From assembly GCA_948567375.1 (NCBI GenBank), contig OX419756.1, positions 7,569,001 to 7,633,000 of the forward strand: a stretch of DNA of 64,000 nucleotides. Direction: 5' to 3'. The notes under the pieces are model-generated. The model did no database searches. It was not told the DNA's origin and saw nothing but the letters and a program-made list of their open reading frames with translations. Source of the stretch: Lunularia cruciata (lineage: Eukaryota; Streptophyta; Marchantiopsida; Lunulariales; Lunulariaceae). Shown here in pieces: positions 192 through 24,989 of this stretch (its first letter is position 1; each line of letters opens with the position of its first letter). The position numbers and the translations under genes were made by a program.

Positions 192-689
192 TATTTAAGA
201 ATATGGAGGGTATGGATAAGTTAGTTAAGACTAAGGAGGTAGCAAATAGGCCAAATTAGTCAAGAGTTATAAAAATATTCTAGAAGCATCTAAGAAACTA
301 CTTGGTACATTCCCAAGTATTGGGTTATGTGCATGCCAAGTAGTAACTTCTAGGAGGAAGCTTCTTGGGAAGCTTACCAGCTAGCTTAGCTTGCACACTA
401 AGTAGATGGGAATTTATTGGGAATCTTCCAACTAGCTTAGCTTAGATGCCAAGTAGGCGGCTTCTAGAAGGAAGCTTCTTGATAAGCTTCTTGGTTAGCT
501 TAGCTTGCATTCCAAGATGATGACTTTTAGGATACTTCTTGAGAAGATTCTCAAGAGCCTTATGTAATCCTTTTATATACCAGAGTCCAAGCTCATGCTA
601 AACATTTAGAGTTTCCCCTCATTCAAGAGTCCCAATGTGATTTTTCACTTTGGTCTTCCATTCTCCTATTTTCTCTTTGGCCTTTTACA
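192..689 (+). repeat. 5' LTR of element A
   Basis: Aligns with the 3' LTR of A (5879-6217 plus 19605-19681) and with the LTRs of C1 and C2. It contains repeated AAGCTTCTTGGGAAGCTT-type palindromes, a TATA-like stretch near 572 and a terminal CTTTTACA at 689. The expected start TGTAACAATATGG is decayed, so the left edge is good to about 5 bases. Positions 690-705 hold a degraded form of the TGGTATCAGAGC primer site. Confidence 0.75.
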
Positions 690-899
690 TTGATATAGTA
701 GGAATGGGATAGATGAAATTTAAGGATAACCAAATCTAGTTTTGACAAACCATTCAGATTCTTGTGTCCATGTACTACCTAAGTATCATTTCATGCAATT
801 CATCATCTCATGTTTTGGATATAATTTTCTGAATGTGATCAACTTGTCCAATGAACTCTTGGTACTTTTGATTGTATCTTATGGAGAATAATGGACGTG

Positions 900-3603
900 T
901 TGCATCTACATGTTGAATTTGATAATAGATAGTTTGATAGTGTAGTAGTCATGGTGGCAATGACCAAGGTAATCATGACCATGCAACAACACATTGAACA
1001 CCTTACTTGATTGTTGGAAGAACAAGATCACTAATGACAAGAGCATGTAGAGAGAGCACCAGCTTGAGAAGGAGAAGAGAAAATCTAATTTCCAAAGCCC
1101 AAGGCATTTGAAGACAAGAATCTCCCAAGCATAATGGAGAATTTTGTTATTTTGAATGTTATTAAAATATAATATTAATATTAAATGTTATTTTGAAGCT
1201 ACAAATCTTCAAGATGAACAAAAGCAAATTCTCTTAGCTTCAAGCCAATTGGATGGAGTGGCAAAGCTATGGTTGCAATTTTGAGTGGAGTGAGTTGAAT
1301 GATAAGTTGTTGCACCAGTCTTGACATGGGAAGAATTTAAGAATGCAATAATTGGTTGATTTCTTAACTATAAATGTCACACAAGCTGCACGATATAGGT
1401 TGACAAAGGTGAAGTTGATTGGCTCTAAAAGAAGCTATATCACATAATTCCAAAACACCATTATGAAAATTCTAGATATGTTGGAAGGTGAAGCTCTAGA
1501 TTCATTTATGAGGGGCTTGATAGCATGAACCAAATTGAAGGTGACTATGCAAGAGCTAAAACATTTGGAAGAAGCCATGCAATTGGTTGAGTGTTTTGAT
1601 TCCTCGGTTGCAATGAAAACTTGGCCATGACCTTAACTTCCACAAAATCTACCAATGCCATACACATGGGTGGAGGAGCCGATACCAATGTAGATTGATG
1701 CCATCCAACAAAGACCACATGGCATTATAGATGGAGAAAGATTAGGACAAAATGGTGGTTGCTTTTATAATTGCTAAATTGGACATCCATTGTAGAATGT
1801 CCACTCAAGAGTGGAGGATAATGATCAAGGAAACAAAGAATCCCAATAGGAGAGTTTGAGCCACCTCATGGGAACTTGATTAGTTCCAATCAAATTGAAG
1901 CTCAACATATGCTAGTTTATTTCACTTGTAAGGTATAATATTTGATCATTGTTGTAGGATTTTGGAAGTTCAAAGAATTACATGTCCATGCAATTAGCAA
2001 AGGAATTCCTATCAAGCCAATAATTGGAATTAGATTGATGATGGCGGATAGTAGAAAAAGTTCTACATTCTGTACCTCACATCCTATTATATTCAAGATT
2101 AAGAAGGAGTATTTAGAGTGTATGAGGTTTATAGTGGCACCTCTACACTATGATGTCATTCTAGGTTTGCCTTAGTTTGAATATCATAAAGTTCAATTTG
2201 ATTAGACCTGATAAAAAATTCAAGTACAATGCCTAAGGTAAGAATTACAATTAGGATGTTTGGCACCTTTGAGTAAGTCACCTAAGAATAATCAATCCTT
2301 AGATGGGAAGTCTATCACTAAAGCAACCATAGAGCAAGCTTTGGAGGAAGATAAACCTATTATTTTAATGTGGATCAAGTCAATTATGCATGGAGAGTCT
2401 GAGAAGGGCTAGAATCCTCATAAGCAATGATTGATCAAACAATTTAGGATTTTTTAGATATGTTTTTGGATGATTTGCCAAAGGGATTACACTCCAATCA
2501 TGGTATGCTTTTCAAGATTTAGTTATTGCTAGGAAGTACTCCAATGAGTAGACCAATCTATTGGCTCTCACCAAAGGAGTTGGATGAGATTCAAATAACA
2601 TTGTTCAAATAACATAAGATTTCATTCAACATAGTACATCTTTGTAGGGAGCACTGGTACTATTTGTGCAAAAGAAGGATGGAGGACTTTGCTTCTATAT
2701 TGATTTCCGTGGTCTCAATGACAAATGCATATCCCTTGCCTCGAATTGATGACTTGCTAGATTGATTGAGTGGAGCATAATACTTCTCCAAGTTAGATAT
2801 TCAAAGTGGCTATTGGTAGATTCCCATTAATAGAGAAGATATGCAAAAGATTATATTTTGTACAAGGTATGGGCATTTGAGTGGAGAGTTTTACCTTTTG
2901 GGGTCACTAATGCTCTTGCAATCTTCATAGATCAGATGCATTGGGTGTTGGATGAGCTATTAGATTGGTACATGGTAGTATTCTTGGATGATATTTTAAT
3001 CTAAAGCAAGATGGAGGTAAAACATGCAAATCACATGTAAGAAGTCCTAAGATGACTATGTCAATGGAAGTTTTACTACAAGAATTCAAAGTGCGCCTTT
3101 TGGCAAAAGGAAGTTTCCTTCTTGGGTCACAAGATCTCATTGGAGGGATCAAGATGGAAGAGAAGAAAATCAAGACCATTATTGATTGGCCTACTCTATA
3201 GGATGCCACAAAATTATGGGCAATTAATGGATTGGTGAGTGTTTATCAATGGTTCATCCACTACTATGCTCATGTGACTGCACCATTGATTGACCTCTTG
3301 GGGAAGAACTCAGGCTTTTAGTAGACCACCAAGCACAAAGAAGCATTACAAAAGCTGTAACATATACTATCTTCAAGCCCCATTCTTCAACTATATGACC
3401 AAACTATCTTGTGTGGTTAATTTCAATGCTTCTAACTTTGCCATTGGAGCCATATTGCAACAAGAATTCTCAGATTTACATCTCATTTCCTTTGTTGTCT
3501 TACTTACTAAATACTATAGATAGGAATCGCTCTACTTGAGATTGTGAACAACTAGCAATGGTATATACCACCAAGGTATGGAGACATAATCTCTTGGGGA
3601 AAC
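900..3603 (+). pseudogene. Element A gag-protease-RT remnants
   Basis: Conceptual translation, with many stops and frameshifts, follows C2. A gag-like stretch lies near 1080-1560. Protease and downstream sequence lie at 1942-2175 (ending HYDVILGLP), and RT at about 2540-3060 with a decayed FLDDILI box near 2983-3000. The connection and start of RNase H reach 3603. Stops at 3319-3321 (TAG) and 3537-3539 (TGA) sit at the same codons as in C1 and C2. No intact product is possible. Confidence 0.75.
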
Positions 3604-4190
3604 TATAATACCAATAGTTAGACATAATATCTCAAGGTGAAAATTGGCTTAATAACATATCAAAGGATGTTAAATATGATGGACTGAGTAGATCAGATAG
3701 AGATATCACTAAAAGAGTACTTTTATTAATAAAGTAGAAGTTGAAAATAACCTAAAAACTTTAGAGCTAATTTTGGAGGCCTAAATGGGTGAATTTGGCC
3801 TTGAAAACGAAGTCACTTTCTCCAATTTTGGAAAAAGGTTTTGCTTTTCTCCCCCCACTATTTTTCTCATCAAAAGCTTTCCAACAATACCTCATCCATG
3901 CAATTTTGAACTCCTTATAAGAAGATTCTCTAAAGATTCCCTTTAGTCAAACCAACCAGATAGAATAAGGACCAACATGTCACTCATCCAAGCAACTAAT
4001 CTAAGGATAGTGCTTGCTGACATGTCACCAATCCATGTATTTGATCCAAGAGTAGAGCTTTTTTTTAGAGGATCTTCTTTGCTATATAATAGAGTCAAGT
4101 GCTCCTTTGAGGTATTGTAGTATTGAGTGTGAAGCCTTGTGTTTCTTCTCTTGCATTTCTCTGAAGGTCTCCTATCCTTGAAAGATTACA
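3604..4190 (+). repeat. Solo LTR (family G) inserted in element A
   Basis: The C2 copy provides an uninterrupted reference. In A the sequence stops after CTTGGGGAAAC (3603) and resumes at AAAACAAGTGATC (4191). The insert runs from TATAATACC to GATTACA, LTR-like with TG mutated to TA, and is flanked by GAAAC (3599-3603) and AAAAC (4191-4195), a 5-bp duplication with one change. It has no coding capacity. A second copy, reversed, flanks element D (20233-20565 and 38191-38464). Confidence 0.8.
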
Positions 4191-4195
4191 AAAAC

Positions 4196-5878
4196 AAGTG
4201 ATCATGCAAATTGATCATAAACCCTTGTTACAAACATTACATTTGGAATACATGCAAAGTCGACATCATCAATAAGAGGAATGACTATAGTTTTTTGACC
4301 TCAAACTTGAGTACAAACTCGATAGGTTCCATGTCATCCTTGATGCCATATTACAACTACCAAATTTGAAGTCTCTTCCTCTCATTGCAATGGCAATTAC
4401 AATAGTGTTAATTCACTCCAAGGTCAAAATTGAGTTTAGACTCTATAACAAGACTCCTTCTTTAAGATTGTACAAGGTTGTCTTGTTGTATATGATAAAA
4501 AATACAACAACTTCCCCTTCAAGGAAGGCCTTTTATTCTAGGAGAACCAGATCTATGCTCTAGCCAAGGGTGATCTATGACTGACGTGACTTTAAGAAGC
4601 CCATGACTTACACCAAGCACGGTCACATGGATGTGGATAAGACCTTGGGTACCCTACAATGCCAATGGTGGTGGCTAAACATAGTTTACAAGATGTTCAA
4701 GAGTTTGTCTAGTCTTGTGAGACATGCCAACACAATAAGGCCAACAACCAAAAACTGAGTGAACTCCTTCAACCACTTCCCATCCCATCTGGTTGATGGG
4801 AACATGTGAACTTAGGTCTCATCATATCCTTACCCAAGACAAAGCAAGATCACACAACAATTGTGATGTTTAGGGATAAGCTTAGTAAGCAAATTCATTT
4901 GGCACCAACCTTTGATATAGTGGATGCTCTAGCATGGGCCTAGATCTACTTTAAAAATGTCTTCAAGCATTGTATGATGCATGGGGTACTCATCTCCAAT
5001 CGTGATCCTCGTTTCATCAAAAAAATTTGGCAAGCACTCTTCCAAATACTCAATACCAAGCATGCTTTGTTCATGGCCTATCACACTCAAACTGATTGAA
5101 AAACCAAATGTGAAATTTTCACCTTGGGTGATATGATGCATGCCTTTGTCAACATTAACCATACCAATTGGGATGAGTGTCTTGCAATTGCTGAGTTTGC
5201 CTACAATAATTTCAAATGGGAAAGCATCGGATTCTTTGCCTTCTTCCTTAATTTTAGCCAAGACCCACTTGTTCTAGATTCCCTTCTTTCTCCTCCTCCA
5301 TCTCATGTCCTTCATACATTCACCTTCTTGACCACAATATCCCAATCCCTACAGCAAACCAAATCTCATCTCCTTGAAGCTCAAAGTTGTCAAAAATAAT
5401 ATGCGGACCAACGTTTTTGTAATCTTACTATTCAACTTGGTGATAAGGTCATGCTTTCTTCTAGTAAACTGCCCCTCCCACTAGATAACTAAGTTTCTAA
5501 ACTTAATCCTAATTGGATAAGTCCATTTGATATCACCCAAATTCATTTCTCTTGTTGCTTATTGACTTGCCTTGCCTTCTTATATGCAAATCTATCTTAT
5601 CTTTCATGTTATCTTCCATCCATATTCTTTTTCCTTTTGTATCTAACCCCCTCCTCCTCCCATACCTACCAACAATCATGATGAGTATGAAGTTGATAGT
5701 ATCTGTGCACATCACCATATTCAACATAAGCGCTAACAACATATTGAGTACAAGGGCCTTTGGAAAGGGTATCCCTTTCATGATACCACTTGGGAGCCTC
5801 TAGAATGCACAAATGGCTATCTAGGAGTTTGAAGCTTCCATGGTGACAAAGACGTCACCAAGAAGTGGTGGAAGAATA
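4196..5878 (+). pseudogene. Element A RNase H - integrase - chromodomain remnants
   Basis: Continues the pol region after the solo LTR. The integrase core is recognisable from about 4780 to 5230. A chromodomain follows at about 5678-5840 (EYEVDSI ... EYKGLWKGYP ... TTWEPL), the module chromoviruses use to target heterochromatin. A TGA at 4578-4580 is shared with C1 and C2 where an Arg codon is expected. The region is dead. Confidence 0.75.
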
Positions 5879-6217
5879 TGTAACAATATGGAGTTTACAA
5901 ATAAGTTAATTAATGCTAAGGAAGTAGCAAATAGGCCAAATTAGCCAAGAGTCATAAAAATATTCTAGAAGCATCTAGGAAGCTACTTGGTACCTTCCAC
6001 AATATTTGCATTTTAAGTGGTGATTTCTAGGAAGAAGTTTCTTGATAAGCTTTTTGATTAGCTTAGCTTGCACACCAAGTAGATAGGAAGCTTCTTGGGA
6101 AGCTTCCAACTAGCTTAGCTTACATACCAAGTAGACGGTTTTTGGAAAGAAGCTTCTCAAGAGCCTTGTATGTTCTCTATAAATACCAAAGTCCAAGTTC
6201 ATGCTAGGCATCTAGAG
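5879..6217 (+). repeat. 3' LTR of element A, left part
   Basis: Begins TGTAACAATATGG and runs through the HindIII-like palindrome array and a TATA box (CTATAAATACC near 6177). It stops at CATCTAGAG (6217), where element B starts, and resumes at 19605. The junction reads GAG|B|TTTC, matching GAGTTTCC in the 5' LTR, so nothing was duplicated or lost at the insertion. Confidence 0.85.
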
Positions 6218-6671
6218 TGTCACGCCATTTGTAGTGTCGCATCTAGATGCTTGGACATTGGACTTCTAGTGATAGTAGTTAGAGTTATTTCAGCAGTTTC
6301 TCAAAGACTACTTTCCGACGGTTAGATTTTGTGTTTGGGGTACTGACTTCATGGTGAAGCCCACCATCACTTTGCACTATTTGCACCGTTGAGGGTGCCG
6401 TCAATGGGACTATTAGGGTTCAGACCTAGCTCAAGTCAAGGGGGTGTAATTTTGAAGTGCAGCTCTAGAGAGCTTGCTTCTCTGATGTTGAGCTTTTGAG
6501 TTCTTGGCTATGGTGGACAGAGGCCGGCGAGCGTCACCTAGATTCTCTATGCTTGAGTGGGTGTGGCTTGACTGTAATGAGTGCCCAGTTGTTGGTAGTT
6601 TATAGAGTGATAGATCAAGTACTGATTTGAGTTGAGTTGAGTTGAGTTGAGAGTGGTAAACAATCTGATTA
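6218..6671 (+). repeat. Split direct repeat A1 of element B
   Basis: This 454-bp block from TGTCACGCC to CTGATTA is repeated near the 3' end as A2 (19071-19515), at roughly 85-90% identity by eye. After CTGATTA the 5' copy continues CATCAAAGAAG, while the 3' copy continues into repeat B2. It contains a short TTGAG microsatellite (about 6630-6655). D and E start at exactly the same base. Confidence 0.85.
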
Positions 6672-7695: not shown

Positions 7696-9334
7696 ATGGA
7701 GTTCTTTGGGGATTCCAAAGGAGTTAGCCCTGTAGTATGTAGTGGGTTTACTCAGAGTGGTGCTTAGTATCAGCCTATATCTTAGGTCCTAGTGAGGGAG
7801 GAGATTGACTCTGAGTTGGAGTTCGACACAGGAGCTGATTCAGTTGAGAGTGCATTTGGTGTGTCCGCATCGTTGTTGTGGGACATGGACAAGATTTATG
7901 GGGCTTCCAACGGCCCTAGGCGTTACTCTGGTATAGTGGGTACCATTGAGTTGGATGACTTCATCCATGAGTTTGATAGTTGGTGTGATCTGCAGCAGAT
8001 GCAGAACTTGACTTTGTTCACACCCTTCATGGCATGGAAGGGGTTGTTTTAGCACTTGGAGTGTCCGCCAATGGATGACTACCATGAGTTTAGGAGAGCT
8101 CATTTGGAGGAGATTGAGTTATAGAGACAATATTGGTCTCCGAACTATGTCTCCATCACTTCATGTTTGGTGGCCAGGAGTAGATTTGCTGTACCTATGA
8201 GTTCTAGCTCAAGTAGTGTTGGTGGAGCTAGTGGAGGTGCACTAGCGGGAGATAGTGCTACTACGAGTAGAGGTACCGCTGCAGGAGGTGGTGTGGTACC
8301 AGGGTTTAACCCCATGGTGGAGTTCTTCTTGTGTTTGAGGTAGAACTACCAAGGAGTACAGATTGACAAGTTGAGGAGCTTGCAAGAGTTCCAGCGGAAG
8401 GCTAGAGAGAGCCTACGCGAGGCATACACTTGCATGAGGTGGCTGATCAGTTTCACTCAGGGAGTTACTAAGGCCCAGGCAGTCCAGTTTTGGTATGGGA
8501 TACTAGACAAGGAGTTGCGACGTAGAGTTTGTGATGCTACGTTGTTACATGCTACTTTGCCTACTTTGGCAGTGGTTGGTTGAGCGTATTGAGCTCAACA
8601 TGGTAGAGGAGAGAGTGGTGACATCTAGATTTGGTAGGGAGACCTCATCCATGGCTGTGACTTCTTCTAGAGTGCAAGAGAGTGCACCACGCCCAGTTGG
8701 TTTTTGAGGACAAGTTGGACAGCCCAGATCCTATGGAGCAAGTGGAGGGCCTAGTGGAGTTAGACCCTTACCTTCATTTGTAGGTCAGCAGCAGCCAGTG
8801 AGTGGTAGTGTAGCTTGTTGGACTTGTGGTGGACCTCACCATAGGAGAGAGTGTACTCAAGGCAGCGGACTTGATACCTTTGGTGCATCACAGCCAACAC
8901 AGAGGCAGTGTGAGCATTGCCACAAATTTGGTCATACTAGTGACCGGTGTTTTGACCTACACCCGGAGTTACGGAGTAGTAGGGCTGCTATGGTAGGTAG
9001 TAGCGGAGCTCCAGTTCATGGAGGACGAGGTGGTGGTAGAGGATCTACACCTAGTAGGGGTGCAGTACGTGCCCTTACTTTTGACACAACTATGGCTACT
9101 CGGATTGAGCAGTTGGTGTAGAGATTGGCTAGTATGGCTATTGCTCAGAGGAGATCAGATTCGGGTGTTGAGGCTTCCACCTCATATGTTGGTGATAGAG
9201 ATGCTTTGGACTTCATGTGTGGAGCAGCACAGGTGGATGTATATGCAGCAGTGACTAGGAGTGTAGTATGTGCTCCTGAGCCTAGAGGAGCATCAGTGGA
9301 GTTGGACCCACAAAGAGGAGAGGTTGGGAGATAG
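7696..9334 (+). pseudogene. Element B gag, broken
   Basis: An ATG at 7696 opens the frame (D has ACG there). The capsid-like part runs to about 8581. After a frameshift come a Ser/Gly-rich tract and two CCHC zinc knuckles at about 8816-8950: C-x2-C-x3-H-x5-C (CWTCGGPHHRREC) and C-x2-C-x4-H-x4-C (CEHCHKFGHTSDRC). Stops at 7765, 8050, 8122, 8341, 9119 and 9332 interrupt it. Five of these replace CAG, CAA or TGG codons kept in D; 8341 replaces AAG. Gag would form the particle and bind RNA. Confidence 0.8.
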
Positions 9335-10559
9335 GTCAGACTTCCCCAATCTTTCATACTATCTGAGGCATTGCAGACAATATCCATGGTTCCTAGATGT
9401 CCCTGTGTAGGTGTGGTAGGTGGTGATGGAGTGCATGATGGACTACCTACTAGTCAGCCACATGCTACTACATAGACTGAGTCTAGCATGATGTTGAGGG
9501 CGGCTCAATTGATTATGCGGTGTCCTTTGTTTTTGGCCAATGACATGTTTACATTGGGAGTTGACCCAACTCCAATGTTCTGGTTGGCTGCCACACATTG
9601 TGAGAGTAGGGATGATGCGGTTCCTACTACTAGGGTAGAGGTGGTTGATAGTGGAGCTGACTTGGTTGAGGAGCATGGGATCCATTCAGCAACCAGTGGT
9701 TTATGGCAGGCAGCAACGGCTAGATTGGAGGAGTTGCTAGCTAGACTGGCCTTTGAGAGAGTGCGGTTTACACTTGGTGTTGTCCTATTGGATAACCAAA
9801 GGGGGATTTTTTGTTTGGTGGGACCTTCAAGGAAAGTCTATACACCACAGAGAGTCTTGTTAGACTCTGGTGCACAACTCCTTATGTTGGGGAAGGCTGC
9901 AGTTGTCGATCTAGAGTTACAGAAGACCGTGTGGAGAGGTGTCCATTTCAGATCCAGACATCTCTAGGTGGTGGTTTGACATAGTATATCACACATGGGG
10001 AGCTTGTTGTCCAGGTTTAGCTTGGTCATCCGACTGATAGCTCGGTGGTGAGAGCTCAGGCTATTGCAACAATAGCTGAGTCATATGATGTGCTAGTTGG
10101 GGGAGCAGTGTTATACCCCATGGGTTTCAGCATTGACTATTGGGAGGAGACAACCTCTTATAGACCTAATTGGCAGTTTGGTGAGGGACGGGTATGTCGC
10201 CTATAGTATGCTTTAGTAGTGGCAGTCTTGGCTCACTACAGTCCGGGACCATGGTAACATCAATTTTAGCTTTCAGTGGTGCAATTACTTGGCCTGATGA
10301 CTTGTTGGAGGGGAACGCCCATGCAAAGTGTACTCTAGTACTAGAGGAGATCACTTGGCTTTGGAGTACGAGTGGGATTGTTCCATCCACCTTGGATGTT
10401 CCATTGTGGAGTTCCGAGGAGGCATTGTAGCAACATGCAGATAAGTTGGTGCAGTAGGCTTGGAGTGGAGCCTTTGTACCATCAGCAAATGAGTGTGAGG
10501 ATGAGCTTTTAGAGGCAATTGCTTTAATACCTTTGGATACCACACTCATTGCTTGGTAG
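9335..10559 (+). pseudogene. Element B aspartic protease region, broken
   Basis: The readable stretch 9488-9967 carries LLDSGAQ, the Asp-Ser-Gly signature of retroviral-type aspartic proteases, about 10 residues before its end. A one-base deletion near 9928 relative to E shifts the frame, and the sequence continues in another frame toward the methyltransferase. A TAG lies at 9473-9475. The region after the DSG (to 10559) is conserved in D and E but matches nothing I recognise. In D the protease and the start of the methyltransferase share one 413-codon open stretch, so both belonged to one polyprotein. Confidence 0.75.
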
Positions 10560-11340
10560 TATCTAGTAGAGGGGATATGCCTATTGGAGTTGTTTGGTGG
10601 GATCAGCACCGGACTAGCTGCGGTGTTACAAGCGGGTATCCGAGTACAAAGGTACTTGTATGTAGAGAGAGATGAGGCTGCTAGGCAAGTCTCTCTACAT
10701 CATGTGGCACACTTGGCCTATCGGTATCCGGAGTTATTACCAATGTTAGCAGTTAGGGGTTACCAAAAGGCCTTACCAGGAGACATTTCCTTACTGGGGG
10801 CGCATGATATGGAGAGACATGGGCCTATTCACTTGGTGATTTTTGGATGGCCATGTCAAGGACATACACATGTTGGTAGAGGATTGGGTCTTCAGGATCC
10901 TCGTTCTGGTGTGTTTTGGGAGATGTTATGGATATTACGACATCTCCAGGTTCATCAGTCCATTTCTCTAGCTTACCTTTTGGAGAATGTTCCTTTGATG
11001 GGTGATTCTTGCACCAGAGTGGTGGCGAGTACACATCAGGTCCATTCAAGGATGGGACCTTCTGTATTGTTAAATGCAGCTAGAGTGGGATCACGGGCTC
11101 ATCATCTTTGTCTTTGGTGGACAAACCTCTTACCCAAAGAGGTTTTACAATGCGCTTATGATGGGATTCAACGACTTGACCACATCCTTGTTGATGATAT
11201 CTTGGATGTTGGATGCTAGTCTCAGACAGTAGTAGTGGTTGATAGGTCACCTATGGTAGTGGTGAACTTAGTTGGATAGCCTAGAGCCGCATTTCCCACA
11301 CTCATGAGTTTCCCAGGCTCTCATGCTTTTTGAGAGGGAG
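10560..11340 (+). pseudogene. Element B C5-cytosine DNA methyltransferase domain (DNMT3-like)
   Basis: Transfers methyl from S-adenosylmethionine to cytosine C5. Motif I LELFGGISTGL (10584-10620) is the SAM-binding loop. Motif IV GWPCQG has the catalytic Cys at 10854-10856. Motif VI LLENVP is at 10977-10994. A DNMT3-type stretch reads VGSRAHHLCLWWTNLLP (about 11085-11135), where DNMT3 enzymes have 'AHRARYFWGNLP'. A target-recognition-like tail follows to about 11330. The open stretch ends with TAG at 11217-11219; D and E read CGT/CGC and continue. It lies between protease and linker in all three copies, so it is part of the element and not an interrupted host gene. Retrotransposon DNMTs are known from charophytes and dinoflagellates. 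Confidence 0.9.
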
Positions 11341-11504
11341 GACCTCGACTTGTTTGGGACTCACACTTATAGTAGTTGGTGGAGCCCAACGCTGTCGTCG
11401 GGAAAAGGCCAGATGAGAGTGATGAGGACTGGACAGCAAAGAGTTTTAAAAAAAAAGAATGTCAGATGAGCTTGGTAAGGAGTGGTAGTTGGAAATTTTG
11501 TGAA

Positions 11505-11650
11505 AGGAACAGAAAAGGTTTTGCAAAGGACAGGAACAGGAAAAGGTTTTTTTGCAAGGGACAGGAACAGAAAAAGGTTTTGCAAAGGACAAGAACAAAA
11601 AAAAGGTTTTTTGCAAAGGACAGGAACAGAAAAAGGTTTTTTCCTACGAA
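11505..11650 (+). repeat. Short tandem repeats in J
   Basis: Four to five imperfect copies of a roughly 32-36-bp unit built on 'ggacaggaacagaaaaaggtttt(tt)gcaa'. Translations on either strand are repetitive and show no domain. Confidence 0.8.
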
Positions 11651-11850
11651 GGAGGAATGAAGAGGGGAAAAGCGAGGAGACAAGGAAGTCAAGGGGGTTT
11701 GGGGAGGGACAGGAACAGTTCGAAAGGGGTTTTGGGAATTGGAGGTAAGGTAGGAAGAATGGGGAGAGAGAAGAAAAAAGGGAAGGGCAAGAGACAGACG
11801 GACGATCGATCGAGAGAACAGAGGAAGAGCGTGTTGCAGCAGCAACAGCG

Positions 11851-12196
11851 GAGTTCAGGTTTCGAAGGAGGAAGCAGGAAAGAGAGAGAGGGATCAAATA
11901 GGAACAAGGAAACGCAGGGGAGATAAGGTCATCGACGGAGAGTGATCAAAGAGAGAACTGGGAATAGAAAAGAAAAAGAAAGAGAAGGAAGGGAAAAACA
12001 GAGTTCAGATTTGGAACAAGGGAATAGAGGAGAGAGTTTTGACGAATTGAAGGAGTGTTGTGACAGGACTGGGAAAAATAAAGAGTTCACAAATTGCATG
12101 GAGGGTTTTGAGACTTTTTTTTTGCAGAGTTCAGGTTTCGAAGGAGGAAGCAGGAAAGAGATAGAAGGATCAAATAGGAACAAGGAAACGCAGGGG
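11851..12196 (+). repeat. 70-bp direct duplication in J (11851-11920 and 12127-12196)
   Basis: Both blocks start GAGTTCAGGTTTCGAAGG and end AAACGCAGGGG with very few differences, separated by about 206 bp of purine-rich sequence. No coding role is evident. Confidence 0.85.
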
Positions 12197-12640
12197 AAGG
12201 AAGGAGGTGGAAGGGACTGGGTTGATTACGAAGGGGCTTTGCGTGTATTTCTTGGCTCTCCATCTTCATGGTGAAAGGATAATTGGACTGTGCAAAAGTT
12301 TCAGCTTCTGTACGTGGATGTACCGGTTGTGTTCAAATCCTCTCCCCGTCCATAGCAAATGCGGGTTCAGATGCTCTGCTGTGTTTGAACACACAGAAGT
12401 CAAATTGCTCACCGTCTAGTTGACTTGTTCTCGACATATGTCGGCTAAGAAGGATTTTGCTACAACGAGATTGTGGAACAGGCCAGTTTGGGTCCCTGTG
12501 GTTGATGAATGTGGAGGAAGTAGACAGGAACTGGGTATCGTTGGGTCTTAGATTCTAGGGTCATGCAGGAAGATCCCGTGTTTCTCTCCTGGGCCGAAAG
12601 GGAAGTTGGCAAGGTTGGGCAGGAGTTGAGTTTTCACAGT

Positions 12641-13055
12641 GAGAAGGACTGCCAGTTTTGGGAAATGAGGAGAAGAGTTTCCGGAAAGTGCAGGGGATTT
12701 CAAGAGAAATAGTAGGGAAGTGAGGGAGAAATATCAAAAGTGAAAAGATCTGCCAAATTTTGGGAAATGAGGAAGAGAGTTTTGGGAAAGTGCAGGGGAT
12801 TTCAAGAGAAACAGTAGTGAAGTGAGGGAGAAATATCGAAAGTGAAAAGATCTGCCAAATTTTGGGAAATGAGGAGGAGAGTTTCGGGAAAATGCAGAGG
12901 ATTTCGAGAAAAGACAGTAGGGAAGTATTGAGAATTATCGAAAGGTAAGAAGGGGTGCCAGTTTTCCGGAAATCAAGAGAGGAGTTTCAGAGAGAGAAAG
13001 TTGTAGAAGATTTTGAGAAAAGAACAGTAGAGTTTCAGGAAGTTTGCATAGGATT
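12641..13055 (+). repeat. Tandem array of about 101-bp units in J
   Basis: Units start at 12641, 12742, 12844 and about 12947. The first three are clearly alike (ctgccaRttttgggaaatgagg ... gggatttc); the fourth is diverged. Not coding. Confidence 0.8.
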
Positions 13056-15212
13056 TTCGAGAGAAGTGGCAGAAATATTAGTGAGAGGAAAGACTGAGGG
13101 TTTTCAGAAAATCCCAGAGAGTTTCAAGAGAGAAAGTTGCATAAAAGGTTGCAGAAATTTCCGAGAAGAAGGAGATAGAGGGTTTTGAATTTTGGCAGAG
13201 AGCAGTAAGTAGCGACGGGAGAAGAAGGACAGAAAGGAAACGGAATTGGAATGACAAGGGAATAAACAAAAAGGTCTAGAGAGTAGGGAGTGGAGGATCG
13301 TGGAGACAGGAAGGAGTGAGGTATCGTGGAGTCAGAAGAAAGGAGGAGAATTACAGAAAATACAGAAAGAAGTGAAAGATTGTGGAGGCAAGAAAAGGCA
13401 AAGAATCAAGAGAAGGCATTTCGAGTTTGACAAAGTGCAGTAAGGTTCAAGTTGGGAGGAAGCACTGTGTATCGGTGATTTAGTCAGCGGAGGCCTTGTG
13501 AGTTAGTTTCTAGAACATGTATGTTGAAGAGATGGACTTCTGCAGGCAAATTGGGAGCAGAGCAGAGGATGAGATGAAAGCAATAGGTTTCAAAATGGCT
13601 ATCTATTGATGATGCTGAGTTAGTTTGAGAACATGGCGCATACAAGTGCCGGATCTTCTTGTCTTTTGGCGCGGTGGGCAGTTCCTTGTAGAAGATTTGG
13701 AAGTGACTTTAGGTTTGACCCGCCAATCCAGGGAGTAAGAAAGATTAAATTGGTGATGGTGAGACCGGGAGGACCGATCGATGGACCTGCAGTAGCTTAA
13801 GTTGGATTATTTCTGGATCGAGTGAATTGTGGGACTGGAGGACCAGTGAGAGGAGTTTCTTAGTTTTTTGTTGCAGTGTATTGTCATCTGCCGTTGTCTT
13901 AGTGCATTCTCTTGTCTTACTGTCATCAAACCAAATTGAGTTCTTGGAGTGTTATTTGCGGTTTCATATAGTATATATCAGGGGAAATGTGTTTGAGAAA
14001 ATTTGATCAGTGCATTGGCTTGGATTTATTGGGAGCACTAGAATGAGGAGGAGCAGCAGGTGTGCTGCTGCGGCTTGAGTTTCTCCAATGGGACTGAAGC
14101 AAGAACTGAAGCAGATTTTATCGGCAAACCAATAGAAGCAAGTACAAACTCGCGAGCGAGAGCAGATCCTTGTGTTGTCGTACTTCTTGGGCCTCGTCTT
14201 ATTGAGGCCAGACCTGGAAAATGAGTGATCTTATCGTATGAAGGGCAGAGATGGGAGTGACGGTGATTGACTGCTGCTGCTTGGGACAGATCTGGAAGAG
14301 AATTGGACAGAGAATCTGTTACTAGTTGAAGGTTTCATCCAAAACTTACTCGAGGAGCAGAGAAAGAAAGGCCTAACTAGCTTGCAAAGGGAAAGTGGAC
14401 AGGAACAAAAGAAGAGAGAAGTCATGTTCAGCTCAGGATAATACGAGGACTGGATATAGAAACTCAATATGGGACTCGTCGGGAGCTTCTACCAGGCGTA
14501 GAGTCCTATGGCAAGAACAGTGCAGAGCGTTCGGGAAGATCTAACATACCAGAATATCGAAGAGAAAGGAGAATCCCAAGGAAGGACCTACAGGACAGTG
14601 GAGACATGGAAAGAACGACAAATTGGAGATGATGCAGAACATGGGGATGACGAGTTGTAGGGAATAGGAAATAGGACCTGCTCAATTCCTTTTCTTTCTT
14701 CATGTGCTTGGCTAGTTAGTGTGCTTCAGTTTGGTCACTGTTTGGTTAGGAGCCGTGTGTCATGGCTCAAAGGATTATAAACTGTGAAACTTGGAATTGA
14801 GATGGAAATGAGATTCCGAGTGATTGAGTGTGTGTACTTGATGTGCAAACAGCGGTAGGAAAGATAATAATAATGTTTTTATTTTACTTCTTTTTTACAC
14901 TCAGTCCGGATTATGTAGATGGGTCAGCACATTTAACCAATTGCTCGGGATTGAGTCCGGTTGCATAACTTGTGGACAACTCCACAAAACCCCACCAGAT
15001 CATTCTCTTTGGAAGATCAGTCTGAGCCAGAACTGCAAAACCCACCAGACCAAAAACATATTAAAGCCGAGGATAATAGACCAACCAAGAGGTCAAGAAT
15101 AATGAGCCGGGACTAATAATAGACGGTACAAGAAGGACAAAACACTCCAAAAGCCTAAGCATAGGCAGCCAGGTGCCCAGCGCAATCTCGAGACCATACG
15201 ATCCCCACGACA
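13056..15212 (+). other. Right part of J, non-coding
   Basis: G/A-rich sequence continuing to about 14500, then more balanced sequence with an AT-rich patch (about 14860-14900). No ORF longer than about 80 codons and no recognised domain, LTR or RNA gene. The end CCCCACGACA mirrors the start of J. Confidence 0.5.
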
Positions 15213-15216
15213 ATGC

Positions 15217-15780
15217 TGATGAGAGAGAGCGGGTGATGGGTTTTTGCACCAATATTACCGCTGTTCCAGCAATGTCAAAGGCATCCAAGCGATAGGTGTT
15301 AGGTCAGGCTATGGACCTGAACTATTTGACCTGGATTGTGAACCTTGGCTTGGTAGAGCAACGTAGGATGCGCTTGATAGGCATCACCACTCGGACACTT
15401 GTGAGCCTTGTGCCTATTGAGATGATTCAGGCACATGCTGGGGGCAATGGACCGAGTGGACATGGTATTCTTGGGACACATCCAGTAGCTACTAGGGAGA
15501 GTGGTCTACTTGGAGTCCATCCAGGTGAGTGTGGGCTACTTGGATTACACTCTTGGTCCACATGGGATGCAACTAGAGGACATGTGGAGCTTGCAGCCAT
15601 AGTGGAGTGAGTTTTTCACAATGAGATTAGGACCTCTAGTGGTCGGAAGCATGACACTATTGCTCCCAAGGGCCCAGTGTAGCAGCCAGTCAGTACGTCT
15701 TCCACTCCTACTATAGTTATAGAGGATACTTGGAAGCCAGATCTTGGACCCAAGCTTAATGGAGAGGAAAGACGGAGGGT
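15217..15780 (+). pseudogene. Element B linker domain between methyltransferase and RT
   Basis: The best stretch is 15296-15610. It reads in frame with the RT that follows, and homologues occur in D (24567-24926) and E (56605-57051). A block with three G-x-LG-x-H units (GILGTHP, GLLGVHP, GLLGLHS) is conserved. I do not recognise the family. It could be part of the methyltransferase target-recognition region, a second protease-like fold, or a domain specific to this family. Confidence 0.6.
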
Positions 15781-17160
15781 TTGGAGGTTCTTGAGGAGCT
15801 ACACAAGTTGTTTTGCCTTTAGTATGAAGGATTTGGGTGCTTTAAAAGGACCTAGTATACGGATTGAGCTGACTAGCGATACACCAATTTTCTGATGTCC
15901 TTATCAATATAGTGAGATGGAGAGGACATTGATTCAGAGCTGGAGTAGTGACCTTTTTGAGGCTGGTTTGGTGGAGATTTCACATAGAGAGTATGCATCA
16001 ACGACAATGATACCAACCAAGAAGGATATGCATGGCAACTACACAGATAGGCGGATGTGTGGAGATTACCGTCCTATCAACCAACAAACCAGGGCTGATT
16101 GGTATGCCATGCCTACACCGGAGGAGATTTTTGATGCAATTGGGCATGCAAAGGTCTTCAGTACTTTGGATCTTTGAGCAGGATATCATTAGTTGCCAAT
16201 TAGGGAGGAGGATAAGTCCAAGACAACATTCTGGGCTATTGATCCTCACAATAAGGATGTGTTATATCAATGGAGGTTCTTACCATTTGGGTTGAAGAAC
16301 GCTCCTATTGAGTTCTAGAGGGTCATGGATAGGATCCTAGCTAGATTGGATTTTGCTCTTGCTATATTGATGACATTTTGGTTTATAGCACTATTGTGGA
16401 GGAGCATGAGAGACAATTGTTGGAGGTGTTTGAGAGGTTGAGATCTCATGGACTCAAATTACATCTTGGGAAGTGTTGGTTCTTCCATGAGCAGGTTGAG
16501 TATTTGGGTCACACTATCTACCCCGGAGGACTTGGTGTTCAGCAAACCAAGGTGGAGGCTATTGCATGTATTCCTTGGCCTACGGATGTGAGCAAAGTGC
16601 AAGCATTCCTTGGGTTGGCAAACTTCTATCGCCGCTATGTTAGAGGATTTAGTGCCATTTGCCAAGGCCTTGACGAAGCTGACCAAGCTTACATAGGAGT
16701 GGTGTTGGGGAGATGAGCAGGAGAGAGCTTTTGTAGAGCTCAAAGAGAGGTTGACATCTGCTCCTATTTTGAGGAGACCAATTAGAGGACGACCATTTCA
16801 GGTTCACATTGATTGGAGTATGTTGGGGCTTGGAGCAATGCTCACCCAACATGATGATGAGGGGAAGGAGTTTGTGGTGGCCTATGCTAGTTGCTCCAAC
16901 AATTCAGTGGAGGCAAAGTATAGTTCATATGAGGGAGAGTGCTTGGCAGTAGCACATTTCCAATGTTACCTATTTGGTAACCCTTTCACTCTCATCATTG
17001 ATCATCAGCCACTGAAGTGGGTGATGGAGTTGGACAAGCTTTCAAGGAAGCTTGCATGATGGGCTCTGATTTTGCAGGAATATCATTTCATGGTTGTTCA
17101 CAGACCTGGAGTGGTGAACCGTGATGCAGATGGGTTGAGGAGAAACCCATGTCCCAGCCA
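15781..17160 (+). pseudogene. Element B reverse transcriptase and RNase H, broken
   Basis: RT shows CGDYRPINQQT (domain 3), the FLPFGLKNAP stretch near 16275 and the catalytic CYIDDILVYS near 16357-16386. The connection reads FLGLANFYRRYVRGFSAI. RNase H follows at 16751-17150, with DWSMLGLGA, YEGECLA, DHQPLKW and NRDADGL carrying the acidic residues. Stops (for example at 16174) and frameshifts near 16320-16380 and 16650-16700 break it. The family type is Ty3/gypsy. Confidence 0.85.
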
Positions 17161-17379: not shown

Positions 17380-18407
17380 CATTGGTGTTGTGGGAGGCAT
17401 AGTTGAGGCCAAGGAGAGAGACCGTGTTCTTCAAAGAGCTAGATAGTTTAGATTGGAGGGTAGACACCTTTTGCGTATATGGGAGGATGGTAGAGTGCAA
17501 GTAGCATTCTACCATCCTCCCTTCTAGCATAGAGATCACAGTTGGTCCGTCATGCTCATGAGGAGCTAGGACATTTTAGAGTAAAGCATACATATAGCTT
17601 ACTCCAGAGTCATTATTGGTGGCGCGGTATGGAAACCAAGGTACAACGCTTTGTTGCCAGATGTGTGGTTTGTGATCGAGTTAGAGCATCATTCAATGCT
17701 CCTACGCCACATCTACATCCATTACCTATCATGGGATTGGGTTATTGTTGGAGTTTGGACTTTGCCGGACCTTTATCGCTGATTGTGAGGCATCATTGGT
17801 ATGTTTTGGTGATGGTGGAGCACTTCTCCAAGTGGATTGAGTTAGTAGCACTTCCTGACAAGTCTAGTGAAGGGACAACTTACTCGTTCCTGGATCAAGT
17901 TCTTAGTCATTTTGGTGCACTAGCTGAGGTTTTGACTGATCAGGGTACAGAGTTCCTGGGAGAGTTTCAGGTCTTGTATGACAAGGCTTTGATTGATCAT
18001 CATACTACATCCCGAGATCACCCTAAGGCAGATTGCTTAGCAGAGAGAGTGGTTTAGACGGTGAAGAGAGGATTGCAAAAGTATGGTTTGCAGAGAGGCC
18101 ACTTTGGAGATTGGGATCTCTAGTTACCTTGGTTGGCCATGGGCTATCGGTTCAGCCGGCAAGCCTCCTTGGCATCCTTCTCTCCATACTTTCTACTCTA
18201 TGGACAAGATCCAAATTTACCTACAGCCATTCATCAAGATGCTACTATAGTTTTGGACTTGGATGACCCCGATGTATGGATGAGCGCATGTTCTCAACGG
18301 GCAAAGATCTTTCAGAGAGTGATGCCATGGCCTTTGAGAACTTGGCGATTGCTCAACATAGAGATACTTTATGCTATGCTACCATTTGAGGAGGAGGTTA
18401 TAGACCC
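17380..18407 (+). pseudogene. Element B DDE integrase
   Basis: The N-terminal HHCC zinc finger is visible (HAHEELGH ... CVVCDRV, 17551-17690). In the catalytic core, the first Asp is in SLDFAGPL (about 17755), the second in LTDQGTEF (about 17935) and the Glu in LAERVV (about 18040). The open stretch 17542-18057 ends at a TAG where Gln is expected (VVQTVKRGL). The sequence continues in frame from 18058, with FSRQASLASFSPYFLLYGQ and onward. A complete DDE triad argues for integrase-based insertion, in tension with the missing target duplication. Confidence 0.85.
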
Positions 18408-18794
18408 TTGATCCGTTGCTTTCATCCAGGCGACTATGTATATCTACAGCAGATATCACCAACAACACTTGATGTTTCCATAGGCTGCACTATCTTGAGA
18501 GTGCATGAGGTTTTGCCATTTGGAGTCCTTATGTTGGAAGGACGTGATGGTGTTGTTTGGAAGGATCATGTGTGCAATTATGCGCCATGCCACCTCCCAA
18601 ACATTGATGGTATTATGGACCCAAGCTTGGCACTTGTACGTGCAGGCTTGAGGTGTATGTTATGTGGCTCTTCTGGTAGAGCTGCTACTATGTTAGTGTG
18701 TGATAGCTGTTTGAGAGGATGGCATATGGCATGTATGACTCCTCCCCTCACAATGGTTTCTCAGGGACAATGGTTATGTTCTAGATGTATTTGA
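18408..18794 (+). pseudogene. Element B integrase C-terminal region ending in a PHD finger
   Basis: This 128-codon open tail of the polyprotein starts with an SH3-like integrase end (FHPGDYVYLQQ ... GVVWKDHV). It closes with a PHD finger at 18654-18791: C-x2-C-x11-C-x2-C-x4-H-x2-C-x14-C-x2-C, with the hallmark Trp two residues before the penultimate Cys (QWLCSRC), then a stop. PHD fingers commonly read histone H3 tails, so this would replace the chromodomain of chromoviruses. In B all eight zinc ligands are present; in D one is lost. The segment is open, but the upstream polyprotein is broken. Confidence 0.85.
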
Positions 18795-18962
18795 CCTATA
18801 GCTAGTTCATTCTTTATATGGTATAGGTTGCAGATAGGCAACTAACGATGGGGTTCCATAGCACCCGACTTCCTGATCTTTGCCCATTATAGGGTATACC
18901 ATATACTTAGAGTAGATGGCTATCTTGAGTTAGAGGGATCTAACCGCCAGCTAGGGGGGCAA
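18795..18962 (+). other. 3' untranslated region and polypurine tract of element B
   Basis: Non-coding, conserved with D (21228-21420). It ends in CTAGGGGGGCAAT (about 18951-18963), a polypurine tract that would prime plus-strand DNA, directly before repeat B1. Confidence 0.65.
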
Positions 18963-19070
18963 TTGTGGCACTTTAGAGTCTATGTATGACTTATGTGTGA
19001 GTTATGCTTCTATAGTGTATGATGTTGACAATGATGTATGTTGTGTAGCAATATATATACACATGATAGC
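18963..19070 (+). repeat. Split direct repeat B1 of element B
   Basis: 108 bp from TTGTGGCACTTTAGAGTC to ACATGATAGC, directly after the polypurine tract. It is repeated as B2 at 19516-19604. D has the same pair at 21120-21227 and 20566-20665. Confidence 0.85.
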
Positions 19071-19515
19071 TATCACGCCATTGTAGTGTTGTATCTAGAT
19101 GCTTGGACATTGGACTTCTAGTGATAGTAGTTAGAGTTATTTCAACAATTTCTCAGAGACTACTTTCCAACGGTTAGATTTGGTGTTTGGGGTATTGACT
19201 TCACGGTGGGGCTCACTGTCACTTTGCACCATTTGCACCATCAAGTGTGCTATTAGTGGGACCAATAGGGTTCAGACCTAGCTCAAGTCCAAGGGGTATA
19301 CTTTTGAAGTGCAGCTCCAGAGAGCTCACTTCTCTATTGAGCTTTTGAGTTCTTGGCTATGGTGGACAAAGGCTAGCAAGCGTCACCTGGATTCTCTATG
19401 CTTGAGTGGATGTGACTTGACTGTAATTAGTGCCAAGTTGTTTGCAGTTTATAGAGTGACAGATCAAGTACTGATCTGAGTTGAGTTGAGTTGAGAGTGG
19501 TAAACAATCTGATTA
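19071..19515 (+). repeat. Split direct repeat A2 of element B
   Basis: 445-bp second copy of A1, from TATCACGCC (TG changed to TA) to CTGATTA. It shares B-specific differences with A1 (for example GGACTTCTAG where D has GGARTTCYAG), suggesting both were made from one template at the last transposition. Confidence 0.85.
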
Positions 19516-19604
19516 TTGTGGCACTTTAGAGTCTATTTTATGCTTATATAGTGTATGATGTTGACAGTGATGTATGTTGTGTAGCAATGTATATACGCAC
19601 AACA
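19516..19604 (+). repeat. Split direct repeat B2 of element B
   Basis: 89 bp from TTGTGGCAC to GCACAACA, related to B1 with an internal deletion. It ends exactly where the LTR of A resumes (TTTCACTC). Confidence 0.85.
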
Positions 19605-20565: not shown

Positions 20566-21227
20566 TGTTGTGCATATATACATTGCTACACAACATACAT
20601 TGCTGTCATACACTATAGAAACACAACTCACACATAAGTCATACATAGACTCTAAAGTACCACAATAATCAAATTGCTTACCACTCTCAACTCAACTCAA
20701 CTCAACTCAGATCAGTACTTGATCTTTCACTTTATAAACTGCCAACAATTGGGCACTAATTACAGTCAAGTCACACCCACTCAAGCATAGAGAATCCAGG
20801 TGAAGCTCGCCGGCCTTTGTCCACCATGGCCAGGAACTCAAAGGCTCAACATCAAAGAAGTGAGCTCTCTGGAGCTCACTTCAAAACTATACCTCCTGGA
20901 CTCGAGCTAGCACCAAAACCCTAACAGACCCGCTGATGGCACACTCGATGGTGCGAACGGTGCAAAGTGACGGTGGGCCCCACCGTGAAGTCAGTACCCC
21001 GAACATGAAATCTGACCGTCAGAAAGTAGTCTCTGAGAAACTGCTAGAATAACTCTAACTACTATCACTAGAACTCCAATGTTCGAGCATCTAGATGCAA
21101 CACTACAAATGGTGTGACAGCTGTCATGCTTATATACATCACTACACAACATACATTGCTATCAACATCATACACTATAGAAACAAAACTCACACATAAG
21201 TCATACATAGACTCTAAAGTGCCACAA
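20566..21227 (-). repeat. 3' repeat cluster B1-A2-B2 of element D
   Basis: In element sense: B1 21227-21120 (108 bp) after the polypurine tract, A2 21119-20666 (454 bp, TGTCACACC to TTGATTA), and B2 20665-20566 (100 bp, TTGTGGTAC to GCACAACA). The A2|B2 junction (GATTA|TTGTGG) is the same as in B, so it existed before either insertion. Confidence 0.85.
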
Positions 21228-21420
21228 TTGCCCCCTAGCTGGCGGTTAGGTCCCTCTAACTCCAAATAGCCATCTACTCTAAGTATATAGTATACCCTCT
21301 AATGGGCAAAGATCAGGAGGCCGGGTGTTATGGAGCCCCATCGTTAGTCGCCTATCTGCAATCTATACCATATAAAGAATGAACTAGCTATAGGTCAAGT
21401 ACATCTAGGACATAACCACT

Positions 21421-22802
21421 ATCTCTGAGGAGCCACCGTGAGGGGAGGAGTCATACATACCATATGCCATCCTCTCAAATAGCTATCACACACTAACATA
21501 GTAGTAGCTCTACCAGAAGAGCCACATAACATACACCTCAATCATGCACGTACAAGTGCCAAGCTTGGGTCCATAGTACCATCAATGTTTGGGAGGTGGC
21601 ATGGTGCACAATTGCGCACATGATCCTTCCAAACAACACCATCATGTCCTTCTAACACAAGGACTCCAAATGGCAAAACCTCACGCACTCTCAAGATAGT
21701 GCGGCTTGTAGAAACATCAAGTGTTGTCGGTGCTGTCTGCTGTAGATATACATAGTCGCCTAGATGAAATCGACCAATCGAGGGTCTATAACCTCCTCCT
21801 TGAATGGTAGCATAGCATAAAGTATCTCTATGATGAGCAATCACCAAGTTCTCAAAGGCCATCCAAAAAATCTTTGCCCGCTGAGAACATGCGCTCATCA
21901 ATACATCGGGGTCATCCAAGTCCAAAACTACAGTAGCATCTCAATGAATGGCTGCAAGTAAATTTGGATCTCGTCCATAGAGTAGAAAGTATGGAGAGAA
22001 GGATGCTAAGGAGGCTTGCTAGTTGAACCGATAGCCCATGGCCAACCAAGGTAATTGGAGATCCCAATCTCCCAAGTGGCCTCTTTGCAAACCATACTTT
22101 TGCAACCCTCTCTTCACCGTCTGAACCACTCTCTCTGCTAAGCCATCTGCTTCAAGGTGATCTCAGGATGTAGTACGATGATCAATCAAAACCTTGTCAC
22201 ACAAGACCTGAAACTCCCCCAAGAACTATGTACCCTAATCAATCAAACCTCAGCTGGTGCACCAAAATGACTAAGAACTCGATCCAGGAACAAGTAACAT
22301 GTCCCTTCACTAGACTTGTCAAGAAGTACCACCAACTCAATCCACTTGGAGAAGTGCTCCACCATCACCAAAACATACCGATGATGTCTCAGAGTCAGTG
22401 GTAAAGGTCCGGCAAAGTCCAAACTCCAATGGTAACCCAATCCCATGATAGGTAATGGGTGTAACTGCGGCGTAGGAGCATTGAATGATGCTCTAACTTG
22501 GTCACAAACCACACATCTGGCAACAAACTGCTGTACCTTGGTCTGCATACCGTGCCACCAATAATGACTCTAGAGTAAGCTATATGTACACTTTACTCCA
22601 AAATGTCCAGCTCCTCATGAGCATGACGGACCAACTGTGGTCTCTGTGATGGAAGTGGTACTACTCGCACTCTACCATCCTCCCATACACGCAAAAGGTG
22701 TCTACCCTCCAATCTGAACCGTCTGGCTCGCTGAAGAACACGATCTCTTTCCTTGGCCCCAACTGTGCCACCCACAACACCAGTGCAAAGATAGTCCATC
22801 AC
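21421..22802 (-). pseudogene. Element D integrase and PHD finger, broken
   Basis: The integrase zinc finger and core are spread over 22593-22802 and 22243-22548 (CVVCDQVRASF, SLDFAGPL). The C-terminal part is 21542-21925. Translating past a TGA gives the PHD finger at about 21421-21540 with one zinc ligand changed (DSYLRGWH, Cys to Tyr), and Gln to stop before WLCPRC. Several stops and frameshifts interrupt it. Confidence 0.8.
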
Positions 22803-24926: not shown

Positions 24927-24989
24927 AAACCCATCACCCGCTCTCTCTCATCAGCGTTGGGCTCCACCAACTAATGTAACTGTGAGTCC

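Follow-up and report, generated by a model that had tools for sequence, protein, structure and literature searches.

The 64,000-nucleotide window analyzed here (Lunularia cruciata, contig OX419756.1, positions 7,569,001 to 7,633,000) contains three copies, designated B, D, and E, of a retrotransposon family. It is almost certainly a Ty3/gypsy family of about 9.9 kb, with a DNMT3-type methyltransferase (DNMT) domain between the protease and the reverse transcriptase (RT) and, following the integrase (INT), a PHD finger. The integrated form of the element was A-coding-b-GC-A-b, in which the left end consisted of repeat A alone and the right end of b-GC-A-b. A sequence-only reading of the window had proposed a Ty3-like family carrying a DNMT3-like domain together with a PHD finger and split repeats. 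This proposal was supported by copies chosen by their RT, in which the domain was fixed, by Pfam searches, and by repeat comparison.

The same reading had placed a C5-methyltransferase between the protease and RT in all three copies, and the domain was confirmed at those positions with the Pfam profile PF00145 (DNA_methylase) and with the relative P0001 as the query. In the profile search, copy B exceeded the 22-bit cut-off (25.9 bits, E-value 8e-6), copy E lay just under it (21.7 bits, 1.5e-4), and copy D was under it (13.2 bits, 0.059); the Pfam check that the reading had suggested was positive for B but fell short for E and D, with relatives and other copies agreeing on the domain. An NCBIfam search returned only the general dcm superfamily, under the cut-off. 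The nearest solved structures by sequence were DNMT3A and DNMT3B (6e-12 with P0001 and 1.3e-13 with a profile), and HaeIII, DRM-like, DNMT2 (1e-4), and HhaI enzymes ranked behind them. Motifs I to X occurred in canonical order with PC, ENV, and RxR, without the rearrangement typical of DRM. An AlphaFold model of the domain of one natural copy (27 relatives) showed a pLDDT of 70.2 and a pTM of 0.70, and all 50 matches listed by Foldseek for this model were DNMT3A, 3B, or 3C, alone or in complexes (best E-value, 2.1e-11; TM-score of about 0.7 by target length). In a tree whose cellular rows were two host DNMT3s, one host DRM, and DNMT3A only, the retroelement DNMT (retro-DNMT) was nearer DNMT3. 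Taken together, the sequence and the model identify the element enzyme as a predicted DNMT3-type cytosine methyltransferase.

The assembled genome comprised 565.8 Mb, 98.6% of which was carried by eight contigs of 60 to 85 Mb. Excerpts of published reports give a genome of 565.6 Mb whose size is linked to Ty3/Gypsy elements (PMC12885004) and describe Ty3/Gypsy bursts in L. cruciata (PMC9985172). A PF00145 search of the genome scored at least 123 places among 2,161 candidates, and 20 of the scored places were examined as 10 kb stretches, with some left ends falling outside the stretch. DNMT, RT, RNase H, INT, and PHD pieces were found in all 20 copies (DNMT by construction; INT was partial in L024), protease-like and zinc-knuckle-like pieces in 19, and a gag-like piece in 18. 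Left A was seen in 15 copies, internal b and right A in all 20, and terminal b in 18. A second sample of 12 copies was taken from 150 scored RT places by RT alone, irrespective of DNMT, and DNMT was present in every one of them. Copies lacking the domain at this site, which the sequence-only reading had named as a refutation, were not found among these 12. A chance match was ruled out by the occurrence of DNMT at the same position in 12/12 RT-chosen copies. The b-GC-A joint occurred 2,120 times genome-wide with up to 3 mismatches (control, 0), corresponding to about 21 Mb if each joint represents a full copy of about 9.9 kb, an upper-end figure in which fragments are counted too.

The host genome itself contained, as judged by eye, two intron-bearing DNMT3-like loci (L001/L029 and L004/L030) as well as a DRM whose motifs are rearranged and a piece resembling CMT/DNMT1 (L002/L031 and L003). 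Recent capture of the host's own gene was ruled out by the introns of the host DNMT3 loci, by the identity to L001 of only about 29%, and by the tree.

The copies started with TGTC and finished with GACA (TG...CA ends). In all five copies with both true ends visible, which were 9,703 to 9,925 bp long, four flanking bases were identical and the fifth differed, indicating a 4-bp target duplication; L016 was left out of this count because its terminal b was lost. The split repeats and the target duplications are observations from this genome alone. The internal b-A joint was the palindrome GACA-GC-TGTC in 10 of the 20 copies, contained base changes in nine, and was not parsable in one; this shape is as expected from two integrase-processed CA-3' ends two bases apart. 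The G-rich tract GCTAGGGGGGCG or a variant was located immediately 5' of b in all 20 copies, some with base changes, and ACATCAGAGAAG or a variant followed left A at the putative primer site. The left and right A differed by 0.2 to 8.2% in 15 copies.

The joint between right A and terminal b (A/b joint) had no extra base in 13 of 16 parsable copies, and the other three had ACATC, G, and A (L012, L016, L021, and L022 were left out as not parsable). Genome-wide, 153 A/b joints with 1 to 16 extra bases were detected (control, 0). In the 100 of these that were listed, the extra bases equaled the start of the primer side in 46, the end of the polypurine side in 20, and neither in 34; among the 18 listed joints with at least two extra bases, the corresponding numbers were 11, 2, and 5. 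L017, the copy with the most alike repeats (1 difference in 449), had the 5-base variant at its A/b joint. Extra bases from the outer edges of the complementary DNA (cDNA) are the pattern of retroviral two-long terminal repeat (LTR) circle joints. On account of the extra bases at the A/b joint and the inner palindrome, we consider that the repeats are probably LTRs permuted through integration from a circle that was cut internally. The cDNA would carry the repeat unit b-GC-A between the polypurine tract and the primer-site position, and both cDNA ends, the A side and the b side, would be joined into a circle through A/b. The DDE integrase would then cut the inner palindrome GACA-GC-TGTC and not the A/b joint, leaving TG...CA ends, and the opened circle would be inserted with a 4-bp duplication to give A-coding-b-GC-A-b, a DIRS-like permuted LTR. 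Several points weigh against this circle model: the primer site is a putative one, assigned by its place after left A; the count of 153 does not include joints without extra bases; 82 of the 100 listed joints had just one extra base and are therefore weak evidence, and one third of the list (the 34 given above) matched neither side; an identical joint variant in several copies may be inherited; and no target duplication was present in the old window copies B and D.

Two other routes to the same repeats were weighed. The right end could be copied with each element by template switching on linear DNA without a circle, and the 13 of 16 A/b joints without extra bases would then be inheritable through the template. 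This is unlikely, because 153 joints do contain extra bases, because 13 of the 18 longer extras in the listed joints match the outer cDNA edges as end joining would give, and because L017 combines the most alike repeats with a 5-base joint variant. Alternatively, the element could be of the DIRS type, with a tyrosine recombinase and a borrowed Ty3 pol, its split repeats arising via the DIRS route; the A-coding-b-A-b layout is indeed that of DIRS elements and, according to the main text of PMC5890265, of KnitGypsy-Dnmt3. Such an origin is extremely improbable, since pol contains H2C2 and rve integrase domains and all five usable copies have 4-bp target duplications with TG...CA ends; no tyrosine recombinase was found in Pfam scans, which covered chosen pieces only. 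Integration of the DIRS/tyrosine-recombinase kind was ruled out by the rve integrase and the 4-bp duplications, and the TG...CA ends together with these duplications indicate that an integrase, not a tyrosine recombinase, made the DIRS-like repeats.

The flanks of copy L019 resembled the A repeat of another copy, suggesting that the family inserts into itself, and in copy L022 the right A was followed by primer-side sequence in place of terminal b, perhaps due to a tandem or recombined arrangement.

Selection on the coding domains was assessed by the non-synonymous/synonymous ratio of coding differences between pairs of copies whose repeats are alike, excluding frame-broken copies and repeat divergence of 0.032 or more. 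The numbers of copies used out of 20 were 9 for DNMT, 12 for RT, 11 for RNase H, 12 for the zinc knuckle, 11 for PHD, and 10 for INT, and the respective ratios were 0.44, 0.29, 0.27, 0.51, 0.38, and 0.60. Neutral simulations of 300 runs, which took the decay at CG, CHG, and CHH from measurements on the A repeats, gave medians of 0.74 to 0.97 across the domains (0.89 for DNMT). No run was as low as the observed ratio for DNMT, RT, RNase H, PHD, or the zinc knuckle, and 16 runs were for INT. The DNMT ratio was 0.43 outside the stretch used for copy finding, and a simpler null for DNMT had a mean of 0.73 and a minimum of 0.56 in 40 runs. As the pairs share copies, the simulation result is strong yet not a formal P value. 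These results indicate that DNMT was very probably under purifying selection in the past. Two of the ratios weigh in the opposite direction, namely that of INT, which was not clearly under its null, and that of DNMT itself, which reflects a weaker constraint than that of RT. The sequence-only reading had also concluded past selection, from intact PCQ and ENV motifs in three dead copies; the conclusion was borne out by the simulation, but its argument was not. PCQ was intact in all 20 PF00145-found copies, a number biased by how the copies were found, whereas RT-chosen copies kept PCQ in 6/12 and ENV in 8/12, which rules out the intact motifs as evidence for selection.

In the A repeats, the C-to-T type changes per site were 0.077 at CG, 0.040 at CHG, and 0.008 at CHH, and this decay indicates that the inserted copies were methylated at CG and CHG. 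Host DNMTs can explain the CG and CHG decay without an element enzyme, which counts against reading it as a trace of the element's own activity. The closest solved PHD fingers were those of proteins that read the H3 tail, such as PHF12, KMT2D, DPF3, CHD4, PHF21A, and AIRE. No chromodomain was found by Pfam in the scanned PHD-bearing piece of copy B. From these domains a role can be proposed. The DNMT part of Pol would methylate the element's own double-stranded DNA, a step to which the sequence lends slightly less than an even chance, and the PHD finger would steer the integration machinery toward nucleosomes bearing a particular H3 tail, for which the chances appear evenly balanced. New copies would consequently arrive methylated, in silent chromatin, and would be tolerated as little harmful; the presence of a DNA methylation writer and a histone-tail reader in one Pol suggests this outcome, which is the least certain step of the explanation. 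The whole chain of architecture, circle replication, self-methylation, and PHD guiding is, in our estimate, a little more probable than its failure at some link.

DNMT relatives were found under the names of Calypogeia, Sphagnum, Marchantia, and the alga Closterium. A long-protein search yielded 90 polyproteins, every one with DNMT by construction; 43 of them combined DNMT, RT, RNase H, INT, and PHD, and 58 had PHD. The order of the window, DNMT first, was found in nine (five from Marchantia, one from Sphagnum, and three others), whereas RT-RNase H preceded DNMT in 51 (metagenome or EukProt rows and Monoraphidium neglectum). The remaining 30 were without RT and RNase H, and the protease preceded DNMT in 18 of these. 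The second order, RT-RNase H-DNMT-INT-PHD, was carried by relatives P0212-P0274. In motif IV, ECQ replaced PCQ in 25 of 49 RT-before-DNMT relatives. The bryophyte gene models of the window order, which are partial, yielded no PHD piece, so that PHD in bryophytes is shown in L. cruciata alone. PF13975 or PF13650 was present in the protease-like region of some relatives. Scans of viral contigs with P0001 and A5 as queries gave no relative, and no Klebsormidium-named protein was among the matches listed (in one search, the best 120 of 946). Two further relatives were observed: P0147 from Calypogeia fissa, which has a protease domain and reads WECQG at motif IV, represents a distant second lineage of the DNMT within a single liverwort, and P0117 is a retro-DNMT protein filed under a bacterial metagenome-assembled genome (Candidatus Obscuribacterales) that more likely stems from eukaryotic DNA binned with it.

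The RT-first rows formed one clade both in the RT plus RNase H tree (support, 100) and in a careful DNMT tree (92/80), for which one window row and alternate RT-before-DNMT rows were left out. The DNMT-first rows were not one clade in the best DNMT tree, and their monophyly was not rejected (approximately unbiased test, p 0.23). The tree of the domain that the sequence-only reading had called for placed the retro-DNMTs on one side against few cellular rows, with a support of 99 with four cellular rows and 100/99 with three. The simplest reading of these sequences is one capture, followed by one later change of place.

Three alternatives concern the domain rather than the repeats. Two separate captures of DNMT3, one before RT and the other after RNase H, would account for the different domain orders (51 versus 9 of 90), and dinoflagellate DIRS elements acquired DNMT3 twice according to the main text of PMC5890265. 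Two captures are nevertheless rather unlikely, since the retro-DNMT rows share one side of the branch against the cellular rows (few Ty3 elements without DNMT and few cellular rows were included) and the same PHD module occurs in both kinds. A DNMT that is a functionless passenger, captured once and carried along in pol, would fit its ratio of 0.44, above those of RT (0.29) and RNase H (0.27), and PCQ being intact in just 6 of the 12 RT-selected copies, though these are dead. This explanation is very unlikely, because none of 300 neutral simulations reached the DNMT ratio and because relatives of 35 to 70% identity retain the domain and its motifs I to X, even where its place in pol had changed. 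DNMT2 has a methyltransferase fold able to methylate tRNA, and this precedent would fit an enzyme that acts on RNA (genomic RNA or primer tRNA) and not on DNA. Action on RNA is nonetheless distinctly improbable, since DNMT3 is the closest match in both sequence and fold and DNMT2 is much more distant (1e-13 versus 1e-4). In the yeast assay described in the main text of PMC5890265, the isolated KnitGypsy domain of Klebsormidium nitens gave no methylation of yeast DNA, a result that its authors deem inconclusive and that speaks for the RNA alternative and against self-methylation, whereas the SymbioDIRS-Dnmt3 domains were positive and methylated DNA at CG.

The layout of the window copies was as follows. 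Copy B, on the plus strand, began with TGTCAC... in its left repeat A (6218-6671, by repeat comparison), followed by a gag capsid-like piece (8269-8601), which was without a Pfam match and at the same position in 18/20 family copies, a gag zinc-knuckle-like piece (8810-9118), and a protease-like piece (9719-9964); the last two were recognized by eye, the protease from LLDSGAQ, and were without Pfam matches. The DNMT3-type domain with motifs I to VIII lay at 10446-11393 (P0001 as the query; Pfam) and was interrupted before motif IX by a 3.8 kb insertion (11394-15211), with motifs IX and X resuming at 15212-15364 (P0001 as the query). This insertion contained tandem repeats with a period of 31/59 (11505-11642) and of 102 (12638-12944). 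RT in two frames (15896-16662), RNase H (16640-17143), INT with H2C2 and rve (17539-18231), and the INT C-terminal module with the PHD finger (18429-18791) were all identified by Pfam. At the right end, internal b (18962-19063) stood immediately 3' of the G-rich polypurine tract, followed by right A (19073-19515; 88% identity to left A) and terminal b (19515-19604).

Copy D, on the minus strand, consisted of left A (37742-38190), a gag capsid-like piece (27765-28045, P0001 as the query), a zinc-knuckle-like piece (27210-27524), a protease-like piece (26381-26606), a full-length DNMT3-type domain containing stops (24807-25898, P0001 as the query), RT (23508-24276), RNase H (23022-23510), INT (21947-22637), the PHD module (21401-21760), and the right end b-GC-A-b (20571-21228; b 21228-21127, A 21119-20666, and b 20666-20571). 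It was interrupted at 29205-36994 by a younger Ty3 element. Copy E, on the plus strand, retained left A (53547-53995), a protease-like piece (54911-55157), a full-length DNMT3-type domain with stops and a frame change (55640-56730, P0001 as the query), RT (57268-58032), RNase H (58030-58524), and INT (58909-59210), which was truncated near 59210 with the right end of E missing.

The young element inside copy D (29205-36994, plus strand) was without DNMT; its repeats were 99.4% identical, and reading frames of 165 to 713 aa covered gag, protease, RT, RNase H, and INT. A different Ty3-like family, for which no DNMT match was obtained, was represented by several older nested copies at 355-6218, 42356-53547, and 59210-61216, and the LTR-like repeats of this second family (44252-44664 versus 49453-49881) were about 91% identical.

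Permuted LTRs with integrase-type duplications point to integration from circles, which linear-cDNA LTR models did not foresee. If this is true, the family would have a distinct life cycle, that of permuted-LTR retrotransposons. We tentatively extend this, at somewhat less than even confidence, to a widespread green-lineage Ty3-type clade in which a DNMT3 writer and a PHD reader would be coupled with a circle opened by a DDE integrase at a palindrome inside the LTR; the circle would be methylated prior to its integration, a single reordering would have moved DNMT from before RT to after RNase H, and bursts would have helped to inflate a liverwort genome. DNA methylation chiefly targets transposons, and a transposon that keeps its own predicted de novo methyltransferase reverses the usual story. 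The DNMT was retained over a span separating several bryophyte lineages. With joints numbering in the thousands in a single genome, annotated relatives in the model liverwort Marchantia, and domain orders that vary naturally, a genetically tractable land plant offers a way to test what benefit DNA methylation brings to a retroelement.

Ty3/gypsy elements make target duplications of 4 to 6 bp, and in DIRS elements a tyrosine recombinase replaces the DDE integrase and no target duplication is made. The L. cruciata family had RT and RNase H followed by an rve integrase, as well as TG...CA ends with short duplications, as in Ty3/gypsy, but not the complete LTR at both ends; the rve integrase and the 4-bp duplications set it apart from DIRS. 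It resembles chromoviruses in having a histone-reading module after the integrase and differs from them in that this module is a PHD finger instead of a chromodomain, none being present in the scanned piece.

The closest known system is KnitGypsy-Dnmt3 of the charophyte K. nitens, described by de Mendoza et al. in 2018 as a Gypsy pol with DNMT3 and DIRS-type repeats (PMC5890265, main text). As far as that text describes it, the two share a DNMT3-type domain that is free of introns and of motif rearrangement and lies in frame with the Gypsy pol, DIRS-type split repeats, and purifying selection on the domain. They differ in the host, which is here a land plant with thousands of joints; in the PHD finger after INT, 'phd' occurring nowhere in that main text; and in features reported in the present analysis, namely the ends, the 4-bp duplications, the palindrome at the internal joint, and the varied A/b joints, as compared by description only. 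Accordingly, the sequence-only reading's view that the combination is undescribed did not hold for Gypsy pol, DNMT3, and split repeats, and stood for the PHD finger within the scope of the same main text. Its mention of copia for dinoflagellate retro-DNMTs was incorrect, the precedents there being LINE (long interspersed nuclear element) and DIRS. SymbioDIRS-Dnmt3 and SymbioLINE-Dnmt of Symbiodinium are likewise retroelements with a C5-DNMT, and the former also shares split repeats, a DNMT3 within Pol, and the occurrence of two orders of domains (PMC5890265, main text). DIRS, however, uses a tyrosine recombinase in place of the DDE integrase and target duplications of the L. cruciata family, and the LINE has none of these repeats. 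An orchid Ty3/Gypsy element with an AlkB-type N6-methyladenosine (m6A) demethylase also acquired a nucleic-acid-modifying enzyme, which, in the part of the report that describes it, is an RNA demethylase in an extra reading frame and not a DNMT in pol (PMC9289625). A 2025 survey, in its passage on the subject, cites retrotransposon-borne DNMT3 only as an earlier finding (PMC12344493), and no paper on DNMT-bearing retroelements of bryophytes was among those listed by searches of one open-access library, preprints excluded. By its sequence, the L. cruciata family is Ty3-like at integration and DIRS-like in repeat layout, and belongs with Ty3/gypsy; new here are the TG...CA ends with 4-bp duplications and the A/b joints with extra bases.
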